Shown piece after piece: positions 37,068 through 40,000 of a DNA stretch of 64,000 bases. The position numbers and the translations under genes are program-made. How positions within the stretch are numbered: position 1 is the stretch's first letter; each line of letters begins with the position of its first letter. The stretch is from Paraphysoderma sedebokerense (Eukaryota > Blastocladiomycota > Physodermatomycetes > Physodermatales > Physodermataceae): positions 186,001 through 250,000 of the forward strand of contig JAHLJZ010000004.1 in assembly GCA_025602915.1 (NCBI GenBank). Reading direction: 5' to 3'. Below the pieces are notes generated by a model. The model searched no databases and had not been told where the DNA came from. It saw nothing but the letters and a program-made list of their open reading frames with translations.

Positions 37068-40000
37068 ATGCGATTGGAAACAGGGACTATACTAACCGTA
37101 AATGGCAAGCGGGTTACAGTTGAGAAGTTCTTAGCTGAAGGTACTCTATCCTCCCTGTCATTCCATTGCCTTTTGGAATATTCCGCGATTACAATGTTCC
37201 TGAATTACATATTGTCTCATTACAAATTGACTTTACCAACGCTAATTCAATGTATTGCTATTAGGCGGTCTTGCTCATGTGTATCTTGTACGGCGCGAGA
37301 GAGGAGATGTTGTTGTCTTGAAAAGTATCGTCGCCGCAGACGATGAAGCATTCAAGGAAGTTCAAAAAGAGATACATTATATGGTGTTGTTTGAATTTCC
37401 ATTCTTAATTATGACCATTCTATTTTTTGTCCATCTATTAACTTGAAAACATAATTATGTATTTCCTTTCAATAACATTGCAGAAACAATTCTCGGGTCA
37501 CAAGAATATCGTCACATATATCGATTCTGAATGTTTTCCCTCCAAATTCGGAACAAACCATAAAGCGTTCATTCTAATGGAATACTGCCCAGGTTCATAT
37601 GATCATTATCTTAAACTGGGTGTCGTAATTATTGTCTGACGAGTAGTTCATATATTTGAATGACTCGCAGGAGGGCACGTCGTCGACATCATGAATAGGA
37701 GATTAAACGATCGCTTGACGGAAACTGAAATATTGAGAATATTTTCGGATACTTGTGAAGCTGTCGCCTTGTTTCATTATTCCAAACCTCCTATTCTCCA
37801 CAGAGTACGTACAGAAACCCATTATCAAGTCTTCCAGTCTTGTGTTCTGGACCCAAACTCGGAATCGCGCTAATCCAGTACCCACTTGGCCCGATGAAAC
37901 AGGATATAAAAGTCGAGAATGTGCTTCTTTCTGCCTCAGGAAGCTTTAAACTGTGCGATTATGGTTCGGCGACTACAAACATTTTTCAACCGAATATAGT
38001 ATTACCGTCTCGCGAAATTTACAAGTTAGAAGAGGATATTCAAAAACATACAACATTGCAGTATAGAGCACCGGAATTGTGTGATTTGTATCAGCGTAAA
38101 GGGATGACCGAAAAAGTTGGTACGTAGGGTTAAAATGAATGTGAAGATGATTGCGTCGAATTAAATTTGCTTGAATTCGTCAGATATATGGGCACTTGGA
38201 GTAATGCTTTACAAACTCTGTTATTATACAACCCCATTCGAAGAAGGCGGTCAACTTGCCATATTGAATGCTAGGTAGGGACGAGTTTACTGATACGTGT
38301 GCTGGTGCTTTTTGACTAACGGTATTGTTATAGATATACTATTCCGCCGACGCCAGTTTTTTCTCAAAAGTTGTTAGCCCTCATTGGTGCAATGTTGCAA
38401 GACGATCCCAGAAAGCGCCCAAATATTTATCAGTTACTCCTTAACGTCAGTAACATGAGGAACGTTCCGTGTCCAATTCAAAATGTTTGTGACTTTTTAT
38501 TTTCAAGTCACGTATTTTTTCGGGCTAACAAGTAAACTTTCAAGATATACGAGGATACTATTGTTGCACAACAATCACCGGTTGCTTCACCTCGAATTGC
38601 GAATAATTCGATACCAACGCACATGTCATCTCCAGTGACACCACAGCAAAACTCAGTGGCTTCTCCAACCCACCCACCGATGCGGCGGGGGCGTCCTCAG
38701 AAGAAGACGAATGCGGAACAGGATCCTTTTGGGTTCATGTCAGGTCAACCCGCTTCAGTGTCGACATCCAGTTTCGGTTTTGAAGACTCGTTTGCCCCAT
38801 CATCAGGTTCGTCTTCCGGGAAACCATCCGGGTTTGCGGATTTTTCCCAAGCGTTTCCTTCATCTTTCGCACCTGTGAACAACCCGAGTCCGGTAGTCCA
38901 ACAATCATTTGCGAGCGATTTTGTTGCAAGAACAACAAGCCAACCTTCATCCAACTCGCAGATGGATGTTTTTAGCATGTCGCCACACGCTTCACCAAAC
39001 CATAGTCGACATAGTAGCTTCTCGACAGTCGCTCAAGTACAGGCAGATTCTTTGTCCTTTCCTTCTCACAGCCGAAGCAGCAGCATGTCCTCTCCCAAAA
39101 GACCACCATTCAACCCAACCCCGATTCTCAGTCAAAGTATGCAGACTTCCAGTCGTCATAGTAGTTTTTCCGCTACCGCTGCATCACTTGTCGATTTAGA
39201 TCCACCTCGTTCCCGAAGCACCAGCATTAGAAGCAGTCAAGGATCATTTTCCTCGTATTGCAGCCCCTCTATACCTTCGAGTTCCCATCCTGTACTGAAT
39301 TCCAATGCCACCCCACTGGCAAGTAGCCTTTCAATCTCATCATCTCTAGGAACTTCATCCTCTTCATCGTCACCCAATATCGTGCCATCTGCCATGACTC
39401 ATCGAAAAACATCATCGGCCGGGGACATGTTTCTGGAAGATCTAAAATCATTATCGGTTAATTCGGTGCCTAACTTACACTCGGGATCACCACCATCGAC
39501 AAAAAGCAGTCCAAATGCATTTGTCAGAGGCTCGTTCACGACTCAAAATTCAAGGAATAGCATCAAAGTTCACAATGGCAGTCATCGACTAAAATGGCTG
39601 GCGAAATTGACAACGAATCAATCAGTTGGCTTTAAGAACAAATATATGAACCATATCCTTTTGAATTCTTAGATATCGTTGGGTTCGTCCGTCAAAGTAT
39701 TAACTATCCTTAACTACTTTTCTACGATTGATTTTAGAAATCTGGCGAGCAAGTATTTTCAATGAACCTACAACGGCGTGGGTGTTTGATTATTTGAGAA
39801 AGTTACCCACGAATGACCCATTTTTCTCGTTGAAATCACTGTATATTGTCCATCGTATGATTATTGAGTGCCCTCCGGAAACTTTGGCTGAGATTCATGG
39901 TCGTTCCATGGTTTTAGATGGTTTAAAACAACTGTGGAAAGGGAAGAATACAGGTACCTTTATCGCAAGATTCAATCTGGAAAGGAATATTTCGATGAAG

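Follow-up and report, generated by a model that had tools for sequence, protein, structure and literature searches.

The 64-kb stretch of DNA that was analysed (the window) carries a gene for an Ark/NAK-type protein kinase with a C-terminal ANTH domain. The model of this gene contains eleven GT-AG introns, one AT-AC intron and no internal stops; its start codon and last intron (40627-40711) were picked by reading frame and by similarity to the protein ends of Allomyces, Blastocladiella and Sorochytrium. The 962-residue product consists of a protein kinase (residues 18–283, Pfam E 2.8e-43) and an ANTH domain (residues 654–803, Pfam E 6.6e-9), the latter region having Sla2 ANTH domains as its top Protein Data Bank sequence matches (best E 1.9e-5). 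The AT-AC junction falls after residue 667, in phase 1, within the ANTH domain. In window coordinates, the features of the locus are as follows.

37068..40912, plus strand: host gene, Ark/NAK-type protein kinase with C-terminal ANTH domain, 13 exons, 962 amino acids
37141-37264, 37384-37483, 37593-37670 and 37805-37902, plus strand: GT-AG introns 1 to 4
38120-38183, 38275-38333 and 38485-38544, plus strand: GT-AG introns 5 to 7, the last being the ordinary GT-AG intron that precedes the AT-AC intron
38545..39652, plus strand: exon 5' of the AT-AC intron (linker and start of the ANTH domain, ending in KNKYMN)
39653..39725, plus strand: predicted U12-type AT-AC intron, phase 1, 73 nt (from sequence, spliced frame, alternatives and orthologue alignment)
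39653..39662, plus strand: 5' splice site ATATCCTTTT (ATATCCTTT at 21 distinct AT-AC candidates genome-wide)
39707..39714, plus strand: branch site TCCTTAAC, branch A at 39713, complementary to GUAAGGAA of the U12 candidate
39724..39725, plus strand: 3' splice site AC, 12 nt beyond the branch A
39726..39953, plus strand: exon 3' of the AT-AC intron (ANTH core)
39954-40035, 40178-40242, 40440-40507 and 40627-40711, plus strand: GT-AG introns 8 to 11

The 5' splice site ATATCCTTTT agrees with the U12-type consensus RTATCCTT(T), and TCCTTAAC agrees with the branch-site consensus TCCTTRAY and places its branch A 12 nt from the intron end. U12-type branch sites usually lie about 10–15 nt ahead of the 3' end. 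The combined pattern ATATCCTTN{30,60}TCCTTRAYN{4,16}AC occurs a single time in the window, where shuffles lead one to expect 0.03 matches (3 of 100 shuffles matched). An earlier sequence-only reading had named this intron start, a perfect U12 branch motif and an AC 12 nt past the branch A, all of which are exact in letters and coordinates. Its claim that splicing restores the ANTH frame exactly holds as well: the spliced frame is open over 962 residues and the Pfam ANTH match spans the junction.

The position of the junction is further constrained by orthologues. The spliced peptide KNKYMN^ aligns without gaps with Allomyces TKYLTRIVTESWRCAIV and Blastocladiella RKYLVRLVTETWRCSLE across the junction, as does the shorter NKYMN^ with TKYLTRIVTESWRCA (Allomyces) and RKYLVRLVTETWRCS (Blastocladiella). 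If the AT-AC intron is retained, translation stops at codon 674. Enumeration of GT-AG and GC-AG excisions longer than 40 nt, with donors at 39560-39725 and acceptors up to 39829, yields 12 that keep the whole frame open, and every one deletes conserved ANTH residues. The annotated orthologue of Sorochytrium milnesiophthora (P0071) lacks eight residues at the AT-AC junction (residues about 600–612) and part of the stretch upstream of it, and resembles the product of one of the wrong GT-AG alternatives. The Sorochytrium gene probably carries this minor intron too, and its annotation is probably wrong at this point. Gene-finding programs restricted to GT-AG introns may join the exons of such genes wrongly, and the residues absent from this annotated orthologue may be a case in point.

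A homologue search with the ANTH region alone found none among 471 candidates; the kinase part as query did find matches, the best of which, at 59% identity, are from Allomyces, Synchytrium and Blastocladiella (best 120 of 1529 matches). In a tree of this one gene (28 rows, 27 of them homologues hand-picked from the best 120 of 1529), the window sequence is sister to Sorochytrium plus Allomyces and Blastocladiella, with support of 96/90. Two observations speak against a grouping with the Blastocladiomycota: within the tree set, Dinochytrium shows the highest identity (62% over 241 columns), and the shortest tree path leads to Mortierella. Among the best 120 of the 1529 kinase homologues, the ANTH-region query matched only Allomyces, Blastocladiella and Sorochytrium, and within this set the kinase–ANTH fusion is confined to these three Blastocladiomycota. 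From the single kinase tree and this fusion we conclude that the host is probably an early branch of the Blastocladiomycota or a close relative.

The intron has many counterparts in the genome (27.29 Mb in 195 contigs), which was searched with one strict pattern per subtype. The AT-AC pattern matched 24 places, compared with three for a reversed-pattern control, so that a few of the 21 AT-AC candidates retained below may be false, and the GT-AG pattern matched 22 places, compared with none for its control. Seven of these 46 places were repeats (four exact 3-kb duplicates and three alternative ends of the same intron), leaving 39, and two dubious places with G at +9 (L019 and L032) were also removed. 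The remaining 37 distinct plausible U12-type introns comprise 21 AT-AC and 16 GT-AG introns; all 37 have T at +9, which is partly by choice given the removal of L019 and L032. The pattern requires CCTT at +5 to +8 and is therefore blind to variant 5' sites, and the exact 3' ends of several introns (e.g. L008, L014 and L018) are uncertain. Median lengths are 75 and 77 nt; 22 introns are in phase 1, eight in phase 2 and seven in phase 0. One phase stays open over 100 nt or more in each flank for 31 of the 37, compared with 13.75% of 4000 GT..AG pairs drawn at random from other loci, and over 60 nt for 36 of the 37, compared with 38.9% of such pairs, a contrast that is somewhat flattered since both phase and 3' end were maximised for the introns and only phase for the control. 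Retention would break the frame in 36 of the 37.

Spliced products covering 32 of the 37 introns were scanned with Pfam, 31 products in total (L002, L010, L011, L039 and L041 were left out; the L046 product, which overlaps that of L045, was extended by the end of the latter for the scan). A match crosses the junction in 12 of these 31 products, the ANTH product included, and lies on one side only in three (L003, ORC5; L020, FancD2; L048, CATSPERB), while 14 have no match. Two further products were not counted in these classes: L036 has very weak matches to several WD40 models, in which the repeat ends at the junction, and L038 matches THOC3 far below the cut-off. The junction-crossing matches outside the ANTH product are listed here.

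L017: BRCT
L018: VPS11 repeat, just below the cut-off
L023: MIOS
L027: ThiF
L028: KNTC1, below the cut-off
L030: Nic96
L035: TMEM107
L037: DER1
L042: TBC
L046: DUF3402
L047: PI3-kinase

On contig C38, one DUF3402 gene holds two U12-type introns of the GT-AG subtype, L045 and L046, separated by about 290 nt. Four pairs of 3-kb loci (L020/L021, L030/L031, L039/L040 and L042/L043) are letter-identical, with the two members of a pair 12 to 32 kb apart on one contig, and are either recent duplications or assembly artefacts. Minor introns also occur in a TMEM107 gene (L035) and in a gene matching the second domain of CATSPERB (L048), both of a kind tied to flagella.

Candidates for three of the four minor spliceosomal snRNAs are found in the assembly.

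C3:68179-68340, minus strand: U12 candidate, full-length Rfam match (1-151), 42.4 bits (cut-off 53), E 5.3e-6
C14:305922-306044, plus strand: U4atac candidate, relaxed Rfam search, 32.9 bits (cut-off 53), E 0.0076
C121:41260-41363 (L026:1501-1604), minus strand: U6atac candidate, Rfam 39.8 bits (cut-off 33), E 2.7e-7

The U12 candidate carries GUAAGGAA, which can pair with the branch site, and the Sm site AAUUUUUGG. In the Rfam alignment of this candidate (L001:1501-1662), the 3' stem-loop has U-CUUU as its loop, against UACUUU in the consensus; in human U12, the loop residues U, A and C matter for binding of the 65K protein (PMC4980772). The U4atac candidate has the same Sm site, AAUUUUUGG, and a kink-turn recognized by eye. 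The U6atac candidate contains GAGAGA, GGUUAGCA and a terminal T run. Both U4atac and U6atac candidates deviate from the consensus in the region of their mutual pairing, and they pair with each other through a 19-bp stem II with one bulge (-32.7 kcal/mol) and an 8-bp stem I. The stem II energy is reached by none of 71,742 control 24-mers (best -29.1; loci L026 and L080 left out); among 5000 composition shuffles of stem II (mean -16.0, sd 4.0), at least one is lower (lowest -33.8). Two early U4atac patterns, one for the U6atac pairing and one for the kink-turn, gave one and 20 places, respectively, and nothing usable: the single U6atac-pairing place and 13 of the 20 kink-turn places have no Rfam match at E up to 1. 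The strongest duplex among the 20 kink-turn places, at L073 (outside the Rfam-scanned set), was judged a chance long-range fold.

The sequence-only reading had pointed to a lineage with U11 and U12 snRNAs and suggested a search for all four minor snRNAs and for proteins specific to the U11/U12 particle. The U12 part of this expectation stands on the candidate above, with its score under the cut-off, and the snRNA search has yielded U12, U4atac and U6atac candidates. For U11, an insensitive Rfam search that scored 39 of 2345 first-look candidates found nothing even with E allowed up to 10. The protein search covered one U11/U12-specific protein, PDCD7/59K (PF16021), out of a group that also includes 65K, 48K, 35K, 31K, 25K and 20K. 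It found no match in the genome and is likewise insensitive, having no positive control, as the control genomes gave no match either.

Taken with the reading frame and the homology across the junction, this machinery leads us to infer that cells excise the intron. Recognition of the 5' splice site would be expected to fall to U11, although it was not recovered by the insensitive search; GUAAGGAA of U12 would pair with TCCTTAAC, both sequences being present; a U4atac/U6atac duplex, as computed, would deliver U6atac; and splicing would unite the two parts of the ANTH domain in the kinase–ANTH protein. In our judgement, with a probability of about 0.94, 39653-39725 is a genuine U12-type AT-AC intron removed by a minor spliceosome retained in an early-diverging fungus related to the Blastocladiomycota.

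The most unusual component is the U6atac candidate. During activation, U6atac takes over the 5' splice site from U11 (PMC3584512). In the candidate, the box that pairs with positions +4 to +9 of the intron reads AAUCGA instead of the canonical AAAGGA, which stands in capitals in the Rfam consensus; the region as a whole reads AAUCGAGAGAUGGUUAGCA where the consensus has AAAGGAGAGAAGGUUAGCA. In the canonical register, pairs U4-A16, C5-G15, U8-A12 and U9-A11 remain possible, with mismatches at +6 and +7, where C6 is opposite C14 and U7 is opposite U13. The best computed duplex is in a shifted register, UAUCCUU with GAG(A)GAUG, helped by U21, and has an energy of -3.5 kcal/mol, compared with -6.8 kcal/mol for the Rfam consensus. 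Relative to the human U6atac/5'-site helix (PMC4980772), G15-C5 and A16-U4 are kept, whereas the consensus pairs G14-C6 and A13-U7 are replaced by C14 and U13 opposite C6 and U7. The lost G14 pair matters in a human reporter, because in transfected cells a CC5/6GG mutant site needs U11 and U6atac GG14/15CC suppressors jointly (PMC4980772).

Either a shorter helix suffices for the U6atac candidate, or a canonical gene is absent from the assembly or was missed. We give close to an even chance to the latter, in which C121:41260-41363 is not the working U6atac. The assembly, in 195 contigs, may be incomplete, the Rfam search scored 46 of 1192 first-look candidates, and both the capitalised AAAGGA of the consensus and the need for GG14/15 pairing in human reporter splicing (PMC4980772) favour a conventional copy elsewhere. 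A search for the canonical AAAGGAGAGAAGGTTAGCA with at most three mismatches speaks against such a copy, since it gave 14 places, all with three mismatches and none with fewer; because the control gave more places (20), the pattern is uninformative beyond this mismatch minimum. Six of the 13 places other than the C121 locus were scanned with Rfam and matched neither U6 nor U6atac; C121 is the only locus known to match U6atac, and the U4atac candidate pairs with the diverged sequence of this very U6atac. That the fungus runs a minor spliceosome whose U6atac gave up the C6-G14 and U7-A13 pairs while the introns found keep RTATCCTTT, presumably held by U11, has in our judgement somewhat less than an even chance.

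The same mispairing at +6 and +7, the failure of the insensitive search to find U11 and the divergence of the U12 and U4atac candidates from the Rfam models could also be taken as signs of a relic, that is, of a poorly spliced intron in a lineage that is losing its minor spliceosome, with the U6atac box decaying and U11 gone. We regard this as very improbable, in view of the 37 candidate introns with strict motifs (even though the pattern itself demands them), the broken frame that retention would cause in 36 of them, the presence of several in conserved genes (DER1, PI3-kinase, Nic96 and TBC) and the 19-bp pairing maintained between U4atac and U6atac. A U2-type AT-AC intron, or a chance motif with an ordinary GT-AG intron nearby, is hardly credible. 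Introns of the former type exist (85 AT-AC introns of the major spliceosome are mentioned in PMC8280824), and an open frame survives 12 of the GT/GC-AG excisions enumerated above. Yet the locus has a complete U12-type 5' site and branch site, all 12 alternatives lose conserved ANTH residues, and the motif pair recurs in the genome in 37 distinct plausible introns, of which 31 have flanks open over 100 nt or more to either side.

A genuine U12-type AT-AC intron at this locus belongs to a known kind, as fungal minor introns are already reported in other lineages: in Rhizophagus, Basidiobolus, Spizellomyces and some Neocallimastigomycetes (PMC10639083) and in Phycomyces and Rhizopus (PMC2846911). 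The rarity in fungi claimed by the sequence-only reading is therefore overstated (PMC10639083), while the host does lie outside the Dikarya, as expected there. Larue and Roy (2023, PMC10639083) counted 205 minor introns in Rhizophagus irregularis and 249 in Basidiobolus meristosporus. Both are non-Dikarya fungi, like the present host, but belong to the Glomeromycota and Zoopagomycota, respectively, and their counts are called from annotations, whereas the 37 introns of this Blastocladiomycota-like fungus come from a strict pattern. Rhizophagus has animal- and plant-like consensus motifs, the phase order 1, 2, 0 and all four minor snRNAs (PMC10639083). The same study uses at least three called minor introns, at least two minor snRNAs at E 0.01 and a corrected minor-intron fraction as its criteria (PMC10639083); the numbers found here reach the first two of these levels, with the caveat that theirs refer to annotated introns.

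The share of the AT-AC subtype is high, 21 of 37 compared with about 26% in human (PMC10639083), and it is not unprecedented, because Phycomyces has a similar share, with 8–9 AT-AC and 8–12 GT-AG minor introns (PMC2846911). Phycomyces blakesleeanus and Rhizopus oryzae (Bartschat and Samuelsson 2010, PMC2846911) are early-diverging fungi with both subtypes, as here, but from another fungal group. Minor introns of Blastocystis are also rich in AT-AC, with a share above the one found here (196 of 253, 77%); unlike the present host, Blastocystis is a stramenopile with a median intron of 39 bp and a phase-0 bias (PMC10639083), whereas medians here are 75 and 77 nt and phase 1 is commonest. Blastocladiomycota and Allomyces do not come up in the main text of PMC10639083, and our search of one literature library on Blastocladiomycota and the minor spliceosome found no report for the lineage, which is not proof of absence; a paper on Lipomyces has both terms, but in unconnected passages.

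The AT-AC subtype has a more uniform 5' splice site, and its share of 21 in 37 may be inflated, because a strict 5' pattern favours such a subtype. The genome, in which both subtypes occur alongside candidates for three of the four minor snRNAs, brings a deep lineage into the set of fungi for which there is evidence of minor splicing. Of these findings, it is the altered U6atac that could become surprising. Should the candidate prove to be the working copy, nature would have supplied a test of the extent of U6atac pairing that a minor 5' splice site requires. A U11 5' end, if it reads AAAAGGAU, would account for the conserved 5' site. The major U6 relies on a short 5'-splice-site helix, and a U6atac with a reduced helix would, if real, thereby resemble it. 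If this reading is true, recognition by U11 and activation by U6atac have separated in evolution.
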